Source: an uncultured Verrucomicrobia subdivision 3 bacterium (GTDB taxonomy: Bacteria > Verrucomicrobiota > Verrucomicrobiia > Limisphaerales > UBA11358). From it: DNA of 37,624 bases. The notes under the pieces are model-generated. The model saw only the letters and a program-made list of their open reading frames with translations. It was not told where the DNA came from and ran no database searches. Shown piece after piece: positions 13,896 to 31,418 of this stretch (within the stretch, counting starts at the first letter, position 1; each line of letters begins with the position of its first letter). A program made the position numbers and the translations under genes. Location of the stretch: the NCBI GenBank assembly GCA_903870815.1, contig CAIQEI010000127.1:1-37624 (forward strand), read 5' to 3'.

Positions 13896-15926
13896 ATGAC
13901 ATCAAAATTATTTTCCGAACTGGGACTTTCCCCCGAGCTGTTGAAGGCCGTAGACAAACTGGGCTACGAACAGGCGGCGCCCATCCAGGCGGCAGCCATC
14001 CCCGTGCTGATGACCGGCAAGGACATTGTCGGCCAGTCCATGACCGGCTCCGGCAAGACCGCCGCGTTCGGCATACCAGCCGTGGAAAGGGTGGATCCGA
14101 ACATCCGCGCCGTGCAGGTGTTGATCCTGTGCCCGACGCGCGAACTGGCGATCCAGGTCTCCGAGGAAATCCACAAGCTCGCGTTCTTCAAGCGCGGCAT
14201 TAACTGCCTGCCGATTTACGGCGGCCAATCCTACGAACGCCAGTTTTTCGGCCTCAAGCAGGGAGCGCAAATCGTCATCGGCACGCCGGGCCGCGTGATG
14301 GATCACATGCGGCGCGGGACGCTCCGGCTGGAGACCATCAAGATGGTCATTCTCGACGAGGCGGACGTGATGCTGAACATGGGTTTCCGCGAGGACATCG
14401 AAACCATTTTGAAGGATGCGCCGAAAGAGCGGCAGACGGTGTTCTTTTCCGCTACGATGCCGCGCCCGATCCGCGACCTGATCGAAAAATATTCGCGCGA
14501 GCCGCAGAACGTCAAGATCGAGCAGAAGGCCATGACGGTGCCGACCGTTGAACAGGTTTATTACGAAGTGGACCGACGATACAAAATGGAGTTGCTCACG
14601 CGGTTGATTGACATTTACGACCTCAAGCTCGGCATCATCTTCTGCAACACCAAGCGCATGGTGGACGACCTGGTGGAACATCTCGAAGCCGCCGGCTACC
14701 AGGCCGACCGGCTCCACGGCGACATGACGCAGGCGATGCGCGACCGGGTGATGAACAAGTTTCGCAAGTCCGGCCTGGAATTTCTCGTGGCCACCGACGT
14801 CGCCGCGCGCGGCATCGACGTGGACGACGTGGAAGTGGTGTTCAACTACGATCTGCCGTACGACCCGGAAGATTACGTCCACCGCATCGGCCGCACCGGT
14901 CGCGCGGGCAAGAGCGGCCGGGCCATTTCGCTCGTGCCGTTCCGCGAGCTGTTCCAAATCCGCAACATCGAGCGGTTTGCCAACGTGCGGATCCAGCGCG
15001 GTAAAATCCCGACGGAAAACGAAGTTGCCGAGGCGCGGGAAAATGTCTTCACCGACAAGCTGCGGGCGCTGCTCACCAGCGGCGAATTCACCAAGCACGA
15101 CCGCCTGATCGAACGCCTCATCGAGGAAAATTTCAGTTCATCCGACATCGCCTCGGCGCTGATCCATCTGCTGCAAAGCGGCGAGGCCGCCAAGCCCGCG
15201 CCGAAGCCGGACGAATATGAGCGTCCGCAACGCGAAGAACGCCCGGGGCGCTTCGATGACCGCGGCGAGCGGGGAAATTTCCGCGATGACCGCCGGCCGC
15301 GCTTTGACGACCGCCGCGAGGAACGTCCCCGCCGGTTTGATGACCGCGCTCCGCGTCCGGACCCGAAGTTCGCGGATCCGAAGAAGTCCAAGGTCGCGCC
15401 GTGGAAAGCCCCCGCAGCGACGGCAGCCCGAACACCAAAAGTCGTGACGCCACCGCCGGCGGCCAAGCCGCTGATCGATGATGGGGCGAGCGTCCCCGCG
15501 AGCCGCCCGGCCGTCAGCGTTGAACCAAAGCCGGCCAGCGAAGCAAAACCGGAAGCCGTCAAAACATATTCCGACGAGGAAATTCTAGCCTCGGTGAAAG
15601 CCCCGGAGCCGAAGCTGGAATCCAAATTATTTATCAAGCCCAAGTCCGCGCCCGCCGCGGCCCCGAAGCCTAAGGAAAGCCGCGCCACGCCGGCCGGTCA
15701 GACGCGGCTGTGGATGAGCCTCGGCGCGGAACAAGGCGTCGCGCCGATTGATTTTGTGAACTCCGTCGCCGGCGAAACCGGTTTGCCGGGCAAGGTGGTT
15801 GGCAAGGTGGACGTGCGCGATCGCCACGCCTTTGTGGACGTGGCCAGCGAGTACGCCAACAGCATCATCGCCAAACTGAACCGCTCGGAAATTAAGGGCC
15901 ACAAGGTCAAGGTCAAGCTGGCGTGA
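13896..15926 (+). CDS. DEAD-box RNA helicase with C-terminal DbpA-type RNA-binding domain
   Basis: 676 residues. Helicase motifs in order: Q motif (FSELGLSPELL...YEQAAPIQ), I SMTGSGKT (48-55), Ia PTRELAIQ, Ib TPGR, II DEAD (about 154), III SAT, IV IIFCNTKRM, V ATDVAARGIDV and VI HRIGRTGRAGKSG. After the core comes an Arg/Asp-rich low-complexity tail (about 440-500, repeated RFDDR units). A Pro/Ala/Lys linker follows, then a DbpA/CsdA-like RNA-binding domain (about 605-676, LWMSLGAEQGVAPIDFVNSVA...VDVRDRHAFVDVA). This is the CsdA/DeaD layout, implying ribosome assembly or RNA unwinding. Linker residues about 528-538 are encoded by a REP-like repeat also found at 20956. The stop overlaps the next ATG by one base. 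Confidence 0.96.
   Translation: MTSKLFSELGLSPELLKAVDKLGYEQAAPIQAAAIPVLMTGKDIVGQSMTGSGKTAAFGIPAVERVDPNIRAVQVLILCPTRELAIQVSEEIHKLAFFKRGINCLPIYGGQSYERQFFGLKQGAQIVIGTPGRVMDHMRRGTLRLETIKMVILDEADVMLNMGFREDIETILKDAPKERQTVFFSATMPRPIRDLIEKYSREPQNVKIEQKAMTVPTVEQVYYEVDRRYKMELLTRLIDIYDLKLGIIFCNTKRMVDDLVEHLEAAGYQADRLHGDMTQAMRDRVMNKFRKSGLEFLVATDVAARGIDVDDVEVVFNYDLPYDPEDYVHRIGRTGRAGKSGRAISLVPFRELFQIRNIERFANVRIQRGKIPTENEVAEARENVFTDKLRALLTSGEFTKHDRLIERLIEENFSSSDIASALIHLLQSGEAAKPAPKPDEYERPQREERPGRFDDRGERGNFRDDRRPRFDDRREERPRRFDDRAPRPDPKFADPKKSKVAPWKAPAATAARTPKVVTPPPAAKPLIDDGASVPASRPAVSVEPKPASEAKPEAVKTYSDEEILASVKAPEPKLESKLFIKPKSAPAAAPKPKESRATPAGQTRLWMSLGAEQGVAPIDFVNSVAGETGLPGKVVGKVDVRDRHAFVDVASEYANSIIAKLNRSEIKGHKVKVKLA
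15481..15504 (+). repeat. REP-like repeat copy inside the DEAD-box helicase gene
   Basis: TGGGGCGAGCGT followed by CCCCGCGAGCC (15482-15504) matches the left arm of the hairpin at 20956-20980 at 22 of 23 positions. Here it is translated in frame as DDGASVPASR in the disordered linker. Confidence 0.75.
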
Positions 15927-16336
15927 TGAGTGACGAAGCGCCAGCGGCGGTGCCGGTTCCCGAAAAAAATGTCGAGCGGCTGTTCCCGTTCGTCGTCAAG
16001 ACGCGCGGGCTGCTCATCGGCCGCGATACCCTGCGCGCCAACAAGAACAAGCTGCACTTTGTCCTCATCACCACCGACATTGCCGACTCCAGCCGCGACG
16101 AAGTGTTGAAGGATTTCTCCCACTATCCGGTCGTGCAACATTTCACGGCGGCCGATCTGGAAACGTTTTTTTTCGTCAAGGGCGCCAAGGCGGTGGGCTT
16201 TACCAAGTCGGGACTCGCCCAGTCCATTTACGCGGAATTGAAATCATTCCGCCTGAACAAACCCGAGGTGAAGCCGACACCACCCAAGTCAGTGAAAAGC
16301 CCCGGCGCTCCCGTCAGTCCTTCAGAAAATCCGTAA
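15926..16336 (+). CDS. L7Ae/YlxQ-like putative RNA-binding protein
   Basis: 136 residues starting at an ATG that shares one base with the helicase stop (TGATG), so translation is coupled. Residues about 18-108 resemble the L7Ae/L30e/YlxQ fold: RLFPFVVKTRGLLIGRDTLR, NKNKLHFVLITTDIADSSRDEVLKDF, a VVQHF strand, and AKAVGFTKSGLAQSIYAEL, which corresponds to the family 'vGi-dkg-A-al' element. The last 30 residues are Pro/Lys-rich and probably disordered. Pairing with a ribosome-assembly-type helicase fits an RNA role. Similarity is judged from pattern only and is weak in the N-terminal part. The 3' end overlaps the convergent rluA-like gene by 23 nt. Confidence 0.65.
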   Translation: MSDEAPAAVPVPEKNVERLFPFVVKTRGLLIGRDTLRANKNKLHFVLITTDIADSSRDEVLKDFSHYPVVQHFTAADLETFFFVKGAKAVGFTKSGLAQSIYAELKSFRLNKPEVKPTPPKSVKSPGAPVSPSENP

Positions 16337-17111
16337 AGGCCGTTTCCGGCGGTGTGGAGAAATCCCGGTCCCGATCGCGCCAGCAAAATTGCAATCGTCC
16401 CGCGTGCAGCGCATGGGTCGCCAGCAGCAGTCGCCCGCGCTGTTCCTCCGTCAGCCGCCGCTCGACGAGCGCCAGATACAAATCCGGATCGCCGCCATAA
16501 AGTTTGTCGCCCACGATGGGATGACCGGCGTGCTGGAGGTGGATGCGGATCTGATGTTTTCGGCCGGTGCGCGGAAACAGCCGCAACAGCGAAAATGGAA
16601 GCTGGCGAATGGACGATTGCACCACCTCACCCTGTCCCTCTCGTCCAGCGGAGCGGGAGAAGGTATTTCCGCTGCCCGGCAAGTTCGAATGACTAAATCT
16701 TCGCTCCACGAAAAATTCCGTCTGGGCCGGAGTTCCGTCCGGGCGGACACAGTCTTTGATCACAACGGCACTCGTCTCATCCTTGCCGAGCGGCGCGTCG
16801 ATCATCCCCTGCTCCGCCGCGACGTGGCCGTGAACGATGGCGAGATATTCCTTCTTGATGCCGCGGGTTTCCCAGATTTTGCCGAGTTCGCCCGCCACCC
16901 CGGCGGTTTTGGCGATCACCACCAGGCCGGACGTCTCGCGATCCAGCCGATTGACCAGCCGCGGCTCGGACTCCATCTTCAAATATATCCGCGCGCGGCT
17001 GATGAGACTGGAATATTCGTCGCCCTTCGTCGGATGACAGACGAGATCGGCTGGCTTGTGGACCACGAGCAGTTCTGCGTCCTCGTAAATGACCGCAAAG
17101 AGCGGATTCAT
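16314..17111 (-). CDS. RluA-family pseudouridine synthase
   Basis: 265 residues, isomerising uridine to pseudouridine in rRNA or tRNA. The fold begins VIYEDAELLVVHKPADLVCHP; the catalytic Asp57 lies in VNRLDRETSGLVVIAKT. Later family elements are IKKEYLAIVHG, FPRTGRKHQIRIHLQHAGHPIVGDKLYGG and LLLATHALHAGRLQF. There is no S4 domain, so it is RluA/RluC-core like without the N-terminal RNA-binding extension. Residues about 140-165 contain an extra loop (SNLPGSGNTFSRSAGREGQ...) encoded by a palindromic repeat that recurs in the UvrD-type gene and at 24461. It starts 12 nt after the uppS stop, likely in one transcript. The target nucleotide is unknown. Confidence 0.93.
   Translation of the reverse strand: MNPLFAVIYEDAELLVVHKPADLVCHPTKGDEYSSLISRARIYLKMESEPRLVNRLDRETSGLVVIAKTAGVAGELGKIWETRGIKKEYLAIVHGHVAAEQGMIDAPLGKDETSAVVIKDCVRPDGTPAQTEFFVERRFSHSNLPGSGNTFSRSAGREGQGEVVQSSIRQLPFSLLRLFPRTGRKHQIRIHLQHAGHPIVGDKLYGGDPDLYLALVERRLTEEQRGRLLLATHALHAGRLQFCWRDRDRDFSTPPETAFTDFLKD
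16622..16663 (-). repeat. Palindromic repeat family copy A, in frame inside the rluA-type gene
   Basis: On the minus strand it reads CCTTCTCCCGCTCCGCTGG and then GAGAGGGACAGGGTGAGG, an imperfect hairpin plus a GGGTGAGG tail. Copies B (23706-23760) and C (24461-24510) have the same architecture. It is translated here as the FSRSAGREGQGEV loop. Confidence 0.7.
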
Positions 17112-17123
17112 TAATCGCCGGGG

Positions 17124-17861
17124 TCAGATGCCGCCAAACCGCCGGTTGCGCTTGGCATATTCGTCCAGCGCGGCGAAGAATTGCGGCCGTTTGAAATCCG
17201 GCCAAAGCGTCGGCGTGACGACCAGTTCGGCGTAGCTGATCTGCCAGAGCAGAAAATTGCTCACGCGCATCTCGCCGCTGGTGCGGATGAGCAGGTCGGG
17301 ATCCGGCACGTTGCGCGTCCAGAGATGGTCGGAAATGACTTTTTCCGTGATGTCGCCGGGCTCGAGCTTGCGCTGCTTCACCTTCTCCGCGATCTGGCGA
17401 ACCGCATCCACGATCTCAAGGCGGCTGCCGTAGCTCAGCGCCATGATCAGCGTCAGGCCGTTGTTTTTGGAGAGCGTGGCGATGGATTTGGCCAGATGCT
17501 CCTGCACATTATCCGGCAGTCGATGGATCTGCCCGATGACCTCCAGCCGGACGTTGTTTTTATTCAGGTCCTTGGTCTCCGTCTTGAGGTAATGGACGAG
17601 ATACTTCATCAGCGCGTCCACCTCGTCCTTGGGCCGGTTCCAGTTCTCGGCGGAAAAGGCGTAGAGCGTGAGATACTTGATGCCGAGTTCGCCGGCGGTG
17701 CGGATGATCTCCCGCGCGGAGTCCGCGCCGCGCCGATGGCCCTCGATGCGCGGCAGATGCCGGGACTTCGCCCAGCGCCCATTGCCATCCATGATCACCG
17801 CGACGTGGCGCGGCAAGTTGGCCTGGGCTTCGGCAGTTAAGGTTGGATTGGTCATGCTCAT
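17124..17861 (-). CDS. uppS: Isoprenyl (undecaprenyl) diphosphate synthase
   Basis: A cis-prenyltransferase of about 245 residues making the polyprenyl diphosphate carrier for cell-wall synthesis. Motifs: [16 protein letters not shown] (catalytic Asp25, start of the diphosphate-binding region), [41 protein letters not shown], and [36 protein letters not shown] with the conserved RTSGE and C-terminal WPDF. The length is normal. Start choice: ATG at 17861 overlaps the stop of the four-helix-bundle gene as ATGA; ATG at 17855 and a TTG at 17867 are alternatives. Followed closely by the rluA-type gene. Confidence 0.95.
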
Positions 17862-18298
17862 CGGCAAATCGTTCGCACGGCTAGATGCTGGATGCTGGAT
17901 GCAGGATGCTCCAGATTTTCGGCCGGACCAACGCGATGGCCGGCTACAACGGACTGCCTGAACAAATTAATTTTGCGCCCCAATTCATCCAGCCGCTGAG
18001 ACAATTCTTTGAACAGCGGCTCATCCGCCAGCGATCCGGTTTCAAACAGCATCTCCAAATGATCAATCGTCTCATCGCACGATGCCTGAGCGTAAGTCAG
18101 AAAATGGATGAACTCCGCCTTGTAATGGCGGCGGCCATAGCCTTCAACAATATTTGACCGGATTGATTTCATCGAGCGCCGGATTTGCGTCCCTTCTTCG
18201 AACATCTCAAACTTCGGCAGCCTGGCCAGCGACATTTTATGAATGTCCACCACCAAGCTGCAGGACAACTTCCAAATCTCCAGGTTCCGATAGCTCAT
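17858..18298 (-). CDS. Four-helix-bundle protein (S23/IVP, TIGR02436-type)
   Basis: 146 residues. The sequence [22 protein letters not shown]...[24 protein letters not shown]...[29 protein letters not shown] has the signatures of proteins encoded in 23S rRNA intervening sequences: L-x-x-W opening, QIRRS-x-x-SI-x-SNI-EG-x-GR, and A-x-S-x-x-E followed by a last helix. Relatives include the Avd accessory proteins of diversity-generating retroelements. Function is unknown; RNA or DNA binding is presumed. The last 25 residues ([14 protein letters not shown]...) are encoded by the GATGCTG repeat, so the C-terminus is not part of the fold. It sits between purA and uppS in the same direction and its stop overlaps uppS. 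Confidence 0.85.
17884..17912. repeat. GATGCTG-type repeat, left side of the four-helix-bundle gene
   Basis: Three and a half near-identical heptads GATGCTG, GATGCTG, GATGCAG, GATGCTC run in tandem. The reverse complement of this type appears at 18342-18372, on the other side of the gene. Confidence 0.7.
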
Positions 18299-18341: not shown

Positions 18342-18370
18342 ATCCAGCATCAAGAAACAAGCATCCAGCA

Positions 18371-18372
<2 letters not shown>
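18342..18372. repeat. Inverted partner repeat, upstream side of the four-helix-bundle gene
   Basis: ATCCAGCATC (18342-18351) and GCATCCAGCATC (18361-18372) are reverse complements of the heptads at 17884-17912. The copy directly abuts the purA stop codon. Confidence 0.65.
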
Positions 18373-20955: not shown

Positions 20956-21021
20956 GGTGGGGCGAGCGTCCTCGCGAGCCGGCGCCCACCTGAAAAGGCT
21001 CGCGGGTACGCTCGCCCCACC
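20956..21021. repeat. Large REP-like hairpin upstream of the M42 peptidase gene
   Basis: Two 25-nt arms (20956-20980 and 20997-21021) pair at 23 of 25 positions around a 16-nt loop. The left arm contains GGGGCGAGCGTCCTCGCGAG. A single-arm copy lies in the DEAD-box gene at 15482-15504. The hairpin ends 70 nt before the peptidase start. Confidence 0.85.
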
Positions 21022-22270: not shown

Positions 22271-24343
22271 ATGTTGAATTTGTCCGCGCTCAACCCGCAG
22301 CAGCGCCAGGCCGCCGAAACCATTCGCGGCCCGGTGCTGATCCTCGCCGGCGCCGGCACGGGCAAGACGCGCGTCATCACCTTCCGCATCGCGCACATGG
22401 TCGCGCGCGGCATCGCGCCCGGCCACATCCTCGGCGTGACGTTCACGAACAAGGCCGCCCGCGAAATGCAGGAGCGCGTTCGCAAACTTCTGCCCCGGGT
22501 CAAGTCGGATGACAAAAGCAACCGCCCGACCATCTGCACCTTCCATTCGCTGTGCGTCCGCATTTTGCGCCAGCACATCGAGAAGCTCGGGTACAAGAAA
22601 AGTTTCGTCATCTACGACACCTCGGAGCAGCTCGCGGCGGTGAAGAAAATTCTTTCCGCCATTTCCGCCAAGGGCGAGAAGACCGATCCCGGCGCGGTGC
22701 TGGCCATGCTGAGCAAGTTCAAGAATGGCGGCGAAAACGCCAAGGGCTTCGGCGACGAAAGTGTCCGCGCCCTGGCGCAGCACATCGCCAAGCGCTACGA
22801 ATCCGCCCTGCACGCCTGCAACGCCGTTGATTTCGACGACCTGATCCTGCTCACGCTGCGGCTCTTCCGCGAGCATCCCGACGCGCTCGCCGCCTGCCGC
22901 GCCAAATACCAATACGTCATGGTGGACGAATATCAGGACACCAACGCCTCGCAGTTCGAGCTGGTCCATGCGCTCACGCTCGAGCACCGGAACTTCTGCG
23001 TCGTCGGCGATGACGACCAGAGCATCTACGGCTGGCGCGGCGCGGAGGTCGCCAACCTGCTGAACCTGGAAAAACATTTCCCCGAAGTCAAAATCGTCAA
23101 GCTGGAGCAAAACTACCGCAGCACCACGACCATTCTCAACGCCGCCAACGCCATCATCAAAAACAACGTCCGGCGGCGCGGCAAATCGCTCTGGTCGCAG
23201 AAGGGCGCGGGCGCAAAAATCCTGTTGCAGACGTACCCGAACGACGAGGACGAGGCGCGGGAGACCGTGGCGCAGATCGAGTTCAAGCGGCTCGCCTACC
23301 GCGTGCCGTGGCAGGACTGCGCCATCCTCTTCCGCACCAACCAGCAATCGCGCCCGCTGGAAACCGAGCTGCGCAAGGCCGGCGTGCGCTATCACCTCAT
23401 CGGCGGCCAAAGCTTCTTTGACCGGCGCGAGATCAAGGATTTCCTCGCCTACCTGAAAACGTTTTTAAACCCGCACGACGACATCAGCCTGCTGCGCATT
23501 GCGAATGTCCCGGCGCGCGGCCTGAGCGACGTCACCATGGAACGGCTGCTCGGCGCCAGCCACGACCGCAAATGCTCCGTCTTCACCGCCATGAAGAATC
23601 CGCTCGTGACGACGACGTTACAGAAAGGCACACGCGAAAGCATCGAGGCCTTCGTGGAATTTGTGGAGCGCGTGCAAAGCCAGTTGCAGAATAGCGCTCC
23701 CCCCACCTCGTCCCTCTCCCCATCCGATGGAGAGAGGGTGGCGCAGCCGGGTGAGGGGTATTTCACGCTCGCGCGCTGGGCCGACAATTTCCTGAACGAG
23801 ACCGGCTACTTCGCCGAGTTGCGCCGGCTGGAAAAGGATCCCGAGAACAGCGAAAGCCGCGTCCGCAACCTCAAGGAATTGATGGCCACGATGGACGGCA
23901 GCGGCAACCTGCCGGCGGAGCGGCTGGAGAACTTTCTGGAAAATATCACCCTCGACAGCGACCGCGAGGAGGAAAAGGAAAACACCAGCGACGCCGTGAC
24001 GCTCATCACCATGCATTCCTGCAAGGGGCTGGAATTCCCGCACGTCTTCGTGGTCGGGCTGGAGGACGGCCTCCTGCCGCACTCGCGCTCCAAGGTCGAG
24101 GGCACCATGGACGAGGAGCGGCGACTGTTTTACGTGGCCGTGACCCGCGCGATGCAGACGCTGACCATCAGCCATTGCGGCGGCCGCAAGAAATACGGCC
24201 AACTCCTGCCCTGCCAGCCCTCGCCGTTCCTGAAGGAACTGCCGGAGGAACTCGTTGAGACCTCCGATTCCAAATCCAAGACGCCCGTCGCGCAGGACTC
24301 TGGCAAAAACCTCTTCGCCGCCATGCGCTCGGCCATTTCGTAA
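22271..24343 (+). CDS. UvrD/PcrA/Rep-type superfamily 1 DNA helicase
   Basis: 690 residues. SF1A motifs in order: NPQQRQAAE (Q motif), LAGAGTGKTRVI (Walker A, 27-33), VTFTNKAAREM (Ia), CTFHSLCVRILR, FDDLILL, VDEYQDTNASQF (II, about 218), VVGDDDQSIYGWRGA (III), LEQNYRSTTTIL (IV), LITMHSCKGLEFPHVFVVGLEDGLLPH (V) and EERRLFYVAVTRAM (VI). It is a 3'-5' translocase acting in repair or replication restart. Length is similar to Rep/PcrA but lacks a long C-terminal tail. About 20 residues of the 2B region (about 477-497, TSSLSPSDGERVAQPGEG) are encoded by a palindromic repeat shared with the rluA-type gene. Confidence 0.96.
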   Translation: MLNLSALNPQQRQAAETIRGPVLILAGAGTGKTRVITFRIAHMVARGIAPGHILGVTFTNKAAREMQERVRKLLPRVKSDDKSNRPTICTFHSLCVRILRQHIEKLGYKKSFVIYDTSEQLAAVKKILSAISAKGEKTDPGAVLAMLSKFKNGGENAKGFGDESVRALAQHIAKRYESALHACNAVDFDDLILLTLRLFREHPDALAACRAKYQYVMVDEYQDTNASQFELVHALTLEHRNFCVVGDDDQSIYGWRGAEVANLLNLEKHFPEVKIVKLEQNYRSTTTILNAANAIIKNNVRRRGKSLWSQKGAGAKILLQTYPNDEDEARETVAQIEFKRLAYRVPWQDCAILFRTNQQSRPLETELRKAGVRYHLIGGQSFFDRREIKDFLAYLKTFLNPHDDISLLRIANVPARGLSDVTMERLLGASHDRKCSVFTAMKNPLVTTTLQKGTRESIEAFVEFVERVQSQLQNSAPPTSSLSPSDGERVAQPGEGYFTLARWADNFLNETGYFAELRRLEKDPENSESRVRNLKELMATMDGSGNLPAERLENFLENITLDSDREEEKENTSDAVTLITMHSCKGLEFPHVFVVGLEDGLLPHSRSKVEGTMDEERRLFYVAVTRAMQTLTISHCGGRKKYGQLLPCQPSPFLKELPEELVETSDSKSKTPVAQDSGKNLFAAMRSAIS
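23706..23760 (+). repeat. Palindromic repeat family copy B, in frame inside the UvrD-type helicase gene
   Basis: Contains CCCTCTCCCCATCCGATGG, then AGAGAGGGTGGCG and a GGGTGAGGGG tail. It has the same order of hairpin and tail as copies A and C and is translated as LSPSDGERVAQPGEG. Confidence 0.8.
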
Positions 24344-24460: not shown

Positions 24461-24510
24461 CTCCTTCTCCCATCGGATGGGAGAAGGTGGCCGAAGGCCG
24501 GATGAGGGTT
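24461..24510 (+). repeat. Palindromic repeat family copy C, intergenic
   Basis: A perfect 9-bp hairpin CCTTCTCCC/GGGAGAAGG (24463-24487, loop ATCGGAT) followed by GTGGCCGAAGGCCGGATGAG. It is the intergenic member of the family found in frame in the rluA-type and UvrD-type genes. Confidence 0.8.
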
Positions 24511-24598: not shown

Positions 24599-25324
24599 AT
24601 GGGCGCTATATTCTTCGGTATTGTGATCGGTTTCATCGGCTGGTTCCTCGTCCGCTACCTCGTCGCCGGCTTTTACACCGTCAACCAGAACGAGCGCGCC
24701 GTGAAGACCAGCTTCGGCCGCGCCGAACGCGTGGGCACCGCCACCACCTCGCAGGACCCCATCGCCGCCACGCTGAACGAGGAGGAAAAGGAGCGCTACA
24801 ATTATCCGCAGGTGCGCGTCATCCCGCCGGGCGGGCCCTACTTCAAATGGCCGTGGGAAAAGGTCTATAAAATCTCCGTCGCCACCCAGACCATCAACAT
24901 GGCGGTGGATCCGGAGAACGCCGACGCCAATGCCCAGGGCACCATGCTCGAGGCCGTCACCAAAGACCAGCTCAACACCGGCTTGAAAGGCCAGATCCGC
25001 TGGCACGTTCCCGTCGGGCGTAGCGCCGGAGGCGCGGCAGACAATAGCCCACGGTGCAACCGTGGGTTAAGCGTCCAACCAGAATTCAAGCCCCGGATGG
25101 GGCGGCAGAAAAGCCACGGACAAACCGTTCTTCCGCCGCCTCCGGGGCTGAAATCATCCCGCCACCTGAACCCACGGCTAAAGCCGTGGGCTACTCTCGC
25201 TCGCTGCTCCGCAGCTTGCCGCGCCATTCCCCGGCCCCTATCTCCGGCGATAACAACCCGCTCACACCAGCGGCTTGGGAAAAAGGCCGAAGCGAAGGGA
25301 AGTCTTCTTGCTCAAGCAGGATAA
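24599..25324 (+). pseudogene. SPFH/band 7 domain protein, truncated by a repeat cluster
   Basis: The first about 138 codons (24599 to about 25013) encode a credible N-terminus of a stomatin/HflK-like protein. There is a membrane helix (IFFGIVIGFIGWFLVRYLVAGF), then YTVNQNERAVKTSFGRAERVG, VRVIPPGGPYFKWPWEKVYKI, a strand pattern IKx-QTINM and LKGQIRWHVP. Here similarity stops abruptly at a cluster of REP hairpins starting about 25014. The frame runs on to 25324 through repeat sequence (Arg/Pro/Ser-rich, no domain). The rest of the SPFH domain and the coiled-coil tail are missing. It is either a recent disruption or a fossil. No second half is recognised downstream. Confidence 0.7.
25014..25200. 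repeat. Cluster of REP-like inverted hairpins that interrupts the band 7 gene
   Basis: Two hairpins of one type, CCCACGG-TGCAA-CCGTGGG (25048-25066) and CCCACGG-CTAAAG-CCGTGGG (25171-25190), lie in opposite orientation. Between them GCCCCGGA (25090) with GGCGGCAGAA (25101) pairs with TTCCGCCGCC and TCCGGGGC (25131-25148). The whole block can fold into a large cruciform, like a REP doublet. Confidence 0.8.
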
Positions 25325-26222: not shown

Positions 26223-26756
26223 TGAATGCGGATGAAATTGCAATAACCATTTTCATTTCACAACCAAACGCCACCGGGTGGGTATGATCGCAATGTATTT
26301 TTGCGCTTCACCGCCCGGCTGCTCGCGCCACTGGAAAGGCCGAAGTTGCCGACTGTGGCTGATCAGATGGATCCGGAGCGCCATCGGCGCGGCATATTTG
26401 TAGACCCCCAAACCAAATCGAATCCAGCCCCGTCGGAGCGCCATCGCCCTTGCGCCCGCTGCCCTGCCGCGCCGGAACGGAGCTTGATTCCAATGGATGT
26501 CCCCGCGGTACCCCGGCAGGAGCAAAGCTGGTTAAAAATGCGGGATTGACCCTTCACCGCCATTAAAAATTGCTTCAAACAGATCTTGCCGCCCGAGGTT
26601 TGTATATGGGGTGTTTACCCCATTTACAGACGGAAGCCGTCTGCGGATAATGGTTAGGCTTAGCGGTTCGCTGTCCAAGGATCGAGCGTTCCGACTAGCG
26701 CGTTCACGCGGTGGGGGATGTTGACGACTCACGCTTTAGGAAAACATTGAATTATT
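26223..26756. other. Intergenic region with direct repeats and a long hairpin
   Basis: No gene is supported here. The 13-mer CGGAGCGCCATCG occurs twice as a direct repeat at 26374-26386 and 26434-26446, in a REP-like context with GCATATTTGTAGACC between them. At 26598-26631 lies the first copy of the ATGGGGT/ACCCCAT hairpin, overlapped by a second hairpin at 26627-26643. The response-regulator gene begins at 26757, so part of this may be its control region. Confidence 0.5.
26598..26631. repeat. ATGGGGT/ACCCCAT hairpin, copy 1
   Basis: Core stem ATGGGGT-GTTT-ACCCCAT (26606-26623), extended by GTTTGTAT/TTACAGAC with one mismatch and one wobble to about 15 bp. It lies 125 nt upstream of the NarL-type regulator gene. 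Confidence 0.75.
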
Positions 26757-31061: not shown

Positions 31062-31418
31062 GCTTTCAAGATGGCACAGGTTGGGTCAGTGGAATAAATA
31101 CCAAGTTGTGCGTCTGAGCATAACCACAGGATATGCTCGATTCCAGCCCCGCGCCGGACGCCGGACCGGCAATGATGCGGCTCGGGGGCAGTCGATTAGG
31201 AGGTGGGACAGGGGATGTCCGCGGAAGGCTCGACCGCCACCGAGCTAAACTATTATTCTTTCAATCCTGCGATTTTGTCTATGGGGTGTTTACCCCATAG
31301 ACAACCAGATCAGCTAAATGACCCCGATCCGGTGCGCGGACTTCGGTATCCGTCGGTTACCTGCCCGTCCGGGGGCGCAATGCTTGCGAATGACATGGTC
31401 TGCGGCCGGGCCGCGGAT
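31062..31418. other. Intergenic region with hairpin copy 2
   Basis: No gene is supported. The only clear structure is the perfect 13-bp hairpin at 31275-31304. The rest shows no promoter or RNA gene that I can defend. Confidence 0.4.
31275..31304. repeat. ATGGGGT/ACCCCAT hairpin, copy 2
   Basis: TTGTCTATGGGGT / ACCCCATAGACAA is a perfect 13-bp stem with loop GTTT. It has the same core and loop as copy 1 at 26598. No T-run follows on either strand. Confidence 0.85.

Follow-up and report, generated by a model that had tools for sequence, protein, structure and literature searches.

The window, that is, the whole 37,624-nt stretch of DNA analysed here, comes from a bacterium of the Verrucomicrobia subdivision 3 type and contains a uvrD/pcrA-type helicase gene (22271..24343, + strand) whose 690-aa product has Pfam matches to UvrD-helicase (6.5e-86) and UvrD_C (4.3e-74). 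An AlphaFold2 model of this helicase, for which the input was 26 window and relative sequences, matches UvrD/PcrA/Rep structures. Inside the reading frame lies a palindromic element of 60 nt, hereafter copy B (23699-23758, + strand), which is defined by its sequence, its fold and its absence from orthologues. Copy B reads, 5′ to 3′, CCCCCCACCTCG-TCCCTCTCCCCATCCGATGGAGAGAGGG-TGGCGCAGCC-GGGTGAGGGG and the peptide encoded there is ...NSAPPTSSLSPSDGERVAQPGEGYF.... The original prediction had placed an in-frame repeat at 23706-23760; the presence of the repeat and its frame stand, but those limits began inside the element and gave it 55 rather than 60 nt.

Folded as single-stranded DNA (-16.6 kcal/mol; z = -3.2 compared to shuffles), copy B has the architecture of a three-way junction made up of an outer stem, a main hairpin and a side hairpin. 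The 5′ outer-stem arm CCCCCCACC, together with the spacer TCG (23699-23710; family consensus CCCCTCACCC), pairs in the fold with the 3′ arm GGGTGAGGGG (23749-23758). Between the arms, sequence and fold place the main hairpin (T)CCCTCTCCCCATCCGATGGAGAGAGGG at 23711-23738 and the side hairpin TGGCGCAGCC at 23739-23748 (family consensus TGGCCGNAGGCC), all on the + strand.

We found that the UvrD orthologues of sister species that align across the site, at 83-91% protein identity, are without the insert, with a net gain in the window of 19 aa (57 nt, 19 codons) over the closest of them. As an example, a sister genome has the segment ...QLQTTANEFRLQTWA... where the window has ...QLQNSA[PPTSSLSPSDGERVAQPGEG]YFTLARWA..., and one tryptic peptide predicted to run across the insert is VAQPGEGYFTLAR. 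Copy B contains no stop codon in the frame used and, with the net gain of 57 nt, the reading frame of uvrD/pcrA therefore remains open, and a peptide that is predicted to be disordered is added to the protein.

PcrA (1pjr) aligns to the window protein in two segments with the insert between them, immediately ahead of query residue 496, from which the alignment resumes. The AlphaFold2 model gives the insert (residues 478-495) a pLDDT below 50 and places it between the helices 452-474 and 500-511. From established knowledge of PcrA, we take this stretch to be part of the 2B domain. The comparisons with orthologues, with PcrA and with the model thus bear out the proposal that the repeat occupies a loop of the 2B region, where it sits between two helices. 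Because the orthologues of sister species are without the insert, copy B is an insertion specific to this lineage, made in frame in an unstructured loop of the 2B domain.

Spread and structure of the repeat family

The window's own genome holds 11 matches to a 28-nt core pattern of the element, allowing up to 3 mismatches, so that the repeat recurs elsewhere in the genome as had been supposed. Of 40 order-level relatives, 32 also match the pattern, and one of them (G025) has as many as 64 copies. These copies are not the product of chance, because the control, the same pattern read backwards, has zero matches in any of these genomes. Identical cores were found, among the matches listed, in Geobacteraceae, Planctomycetes, Acidobacteria, alpha-, beta- and gammaproteobacteria, Chloroflexi and others. 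When 388 genomes taken evenly across the phylum were searched with up to one mismatch, the only match was the window's own genome; the family therefore has its centre in the order to which the window belongs and is patchy outside it. None of the papers that a literature search by core sequence listed deals with a bacterial repeat.

Across 26 copies, 94.9% of the cells of the three-helix structure are paired. Two-sided (compensatory) changes account for 18 cells compared to 5.1 +/- 1.8 in shuffled data, a number reached by none of 500 shuffles, and such changes were found in all three helices. The outer stem of 8-10 bp constitutes terminal inverted repeats of roughly 10 nt, and the ends of the element vary among copies, which blurs any contrast in length modulo 3 between genic and intergenic copies.

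Using a simple ORF caller on 169 copies from a non-random sample of genomes, we found 118 copies (70%) to be intergenic and 32 (about 19%) to lie wholly inside an ORF, the rest overlapping or abutting ORF ends. The coding share of a bacterial genome is far above this genic share, and most genic insertions are therefore presumably lost. The copies in ORFs have both orientations and five of the six phases, the phase with the TGA of GGTGAGG being absent. Most of the 30 ORFs that we checked have Pfam domains, among them UvrB, OGG, RtcB, RsmA, the CCA-adding enzyme, MnmE, GyrA and HsdR.

We also considered a special adaptation of the element to translation and rejected it: the consensus is open in four of the six frames while composition-matched shuffles are mostly open in five, and shuffles of equal composition are open in as many frames as the element or more.

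The large intergenic fraction, 70% of the copies, and the conservation of the three-way junction with compensation could also be expected of an element that is chiefly a functional RNA or DNA structure, such as a terminator, an mRNA stabiliser or a protein-binding site, with the genic copies as by-products. We consider this unlikely, because the element is patchily distributed, with 1 of 388 genomes matching when up to one mismatch is allowed, and occurs within genes in either orientation, both of which fit mobility better.

Other copies, host loops and transposases

Two further copies in the window had been noted in the original prediction and both are real. The intergenic copy CTCCTTCTCCCATCGGATGGGAGAAGGTGGCCGAAGGCCGGATGAGGG, earlier given as 24461-24510, spans about 24461-24508 on the + strand according to its sequence. 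Copy A (16625..16663, - strand) lies in frame in the gene called as an RluA-type pseudouridine synthase (16314..17111, - strand); it is degenerate, is without the side hairpin and is common to the sister genome G009. Judged from this sequence comparison, copy A is an older, degenerate insertion common to the window genome and one sister species. A further in-frame copy, the third of the window's own genome, is found in an 8-oxoguanine-glycosylase-type gene with OGG_N and HhH-GPD domains (L003).

The loops that host these copies hold different inserts in different genomes. The glycosylase loop contains the family element in reverse in the window's own genome (G000) and forward in G018, other palindromes in G012 and G001, and no insert in G003, G014, G016 and G017; the insert of G012 is a dispersed repeat in its own right. 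In the UvrD loop of G021 (L030), a different palindrome, of the TGACAAGTGGC family, has inserted independently and in frame, and it is a dispersed repeat of the G021 genome. Besides the copy common to G000 and G009, the RluA loop has other repeat-like inserts in G001, G006 and G015. Collectively, these alignments indicate that, in sister species, different repeat families have independently struck the same protein loops.

The raw list of hosts includes UvrD, UvrB, OGG, RluA, RtcB, RsmA, the CCA-adding enzyme, GyrA and restriction enzymes, and the same tendency towards DNA and RNA enzymes is given for REPs in PMC3733652. Both would suit a repeat-derived peptide that has been recruited and modifies the activity of UvrD, for example with a mutator effect. 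However, the UvrD insert is found in one species only and is predicted to be disordered, and in other species the same loops take unrelated sequences, a sign of tolerance; recruitment is in our judgement distinctly unlikely.

Other palindromes are present in the window. The repeated palindrome GGTGGGGCGAGCGTCC...GGCTCGCGGG forms an inverted pair (20956-21021) near the start of an M42 peptidase ORF, with one copy (15479-15504) in a DEAD-box helicase gene, and the RluA loop of G015 holds a sequence similar to it. Two 30-nt palindromes at 26599-26628 and 31274-31303, TTTGTATATGGGGTGTTTACCCCATTTACA, are 90% identical.

The window's own genome has four full and several partial matches to Y1 tyrosine transposases. 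Among 67 Y1_Tnp loci from this genome, its relatives and other phyla, none has a flanking copy of the element and, at the few loci with any copy, at least hundreds of bases separate it from the transposase match. Mobilisation by RAYT through adjacency was accordingly rejected for these loci. No target-site duplication is visible, the orthologue flanks being too diverged to define one.

A different repeat does flank such genes. The Rfam family Acido-Lenti-1 (RF01687), which is listed as an sRNA, matches the window at 25022-25066 (- strand) and 25171-25216 (+ strand); elsewhere, its matches flank Y1 tyrosine transposase genes, on both sides and inverted in L201 and on one side in L200, L202 and L209. 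Because of this position, the family may be a transposable element's terminal inverted repeat rather than an RNA gene. The inverted pair in the window lies inside an SPFH/Band 7 ORF (24599-25324), for which a Band_7 match of only 70 of the 176 profile positions suggests a broken gene. Furthermore, inverted repeats at 17884-17910 and 18346-18372 lie at or near the ends of a 23S rRNA intervening-sequence-protein gene (17858-18298, - strand), which looks as if it were part of a mobile unit.

Origin of the insertion in UvrD

The genome is a draft of 176 contigs with 3% contamination, and an assembly chimera in a metagenome genome could in principle create such an insert; this is very improbable, given that the other copies in the assembly have all diverged from the insert (the nearest match at 77%), that the insert is in frame with orthologous sequence on both sides and that independent genomes have similar inserts. 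In more distant relatives, the loop region varies in both length and sequence, which might suggest an ancestral variable loop of the protein with a chance resemblance to the repeat. This has next to no probability, since the insert has the full family fold, fits the family consensus over about 60 nt and is absent from the 83-91% identical orthologues, an absence that, together with the repeat identity, refutes this reading.

On the dispersal of the repeat, its compensatory structure, its absence from orthologues, the open frame and the predicted disorder, we conclude that copy B is very probably a copy of a dispersed, non-autonomous element, some 60 nt long and with terminal inverted repeats of roughly 10 nt, which would have entered a tolerant inter-helix 2B loop of UvrD/PcrA, in frame, after the split from the compared sister species. 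We infer that such an element would move as a folded single strand, through a hairpin intermediate, with an enzyme acting in trans; selection would purge the insertions that break the frame, and the added peptide would be roughly neutral for UvrD function. Copy B is diverged from the other copies, with a nearest own-genome match of only 77% identity and a 2-nt deletion that puts it outside the 28-nt core search pattern, and this weighs against the proposed explanation as regards very recent movement. The lack of a flanking copy at all 67 transposase loci weighs against the explanation too. Copy B is most likely a tolerated selfish insertion.

More tentatively, we hypothesize that the untagged three-way-junction family, near-identical across phyla and absent from the literature searched, is moved by an undescribed enzyme, and that, in this lineage, several unrelated families of palindromes land repeatedly in the UvrD 2B, OGG-type glycosylase and RluA loops; we give this hypothesis somewhat less than an even chance. 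If true, such repeats would be a steady source of new protein segments. The case extends in-frame palindromic invasion to a lineage that is known for the most part through draft genomes and in which the sister species act as empty-site controls. The reuse of loops by unrelated families allows targeted insertion to be tested directly against mere tolerance.

Comparison with known palindromic repeats

Palindromes are already established as in-frame invaders of genes, both in Rickettsia and in a verrucomicrobium other than this one. Di Nocera et al. (2013; PMC3733652) described the GTAG and CGTC REPs as short palindromes that are mostly intergenic, some lying wholly within ORFs. Intragenic GTAG repeats were most numerous in Opitutus terrae, a member of the Verrucomicrobia, both uvrA genes included, and the statement that no such case had been described for Verrucomicrobia is therefore wrong. 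In the same study, the REP-carrying genes of various species include the UvrD/REP helicase and tRNA pseudouridine synthases, intragenic REP dimers or groups add 20-30 aa, and different REPs are found at about the same site of recB in two Xanthomonas species. A mutator effect was speculated for REP-carrying repair genes, and RPE-1 was termed a case of longer insertions.

The element shares with the GTAG and CGTC REPs that it is short, dispersed and mostly intergenic, with compensatory changes in the stem, and that some copies lie within ORFs, many of the hosts being DNA repair genes and pseudouridine synthases. The two tags define two REP superfamilies, whereas the element (consensus CCCCTCACCC...GGGTGAGGGG) has neither and forms, over about 60 nt, a three-way junction that includes an outer stem. 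Unlike a RAYT-linked REP (REPtron), its copies are not adjacent to RAYT genes (0/67 Y1_Tnp loci). With MITEs and TIRYT-associated families, the element has in common terminal inverted repeats of roughly 10 nt and an interior that is self-complementary. Its family consensus (GGGGAGAG) also contains GGGGWSAS, a motif that some TIRs are reported to have, which may be a coincidence. In contrast to these families, no copy was found to flank a transposase gene; target-site duplications are not visible in the diverged flanks.

The resemblance to Rickettsia palindromic elements that the original prediction drew holds for behaviour only: the insert is in frame, is absent from the sister UvrD proteins and is repeated in the genome. 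Both kinds of element enter conserved genes in frame, add peptides and are absent from orthologues, here those of UvrD, the glycosylase and RluA; ours is found in a different host phylum and is shorter than RPE-1, the likeness drawn here being one of behaviour. Taken together, these comparisons show that the element differs from known REPs in being an untagged three-way-junction family with no linked transposase, with identity across phyla and with host loops that are reused by several families.
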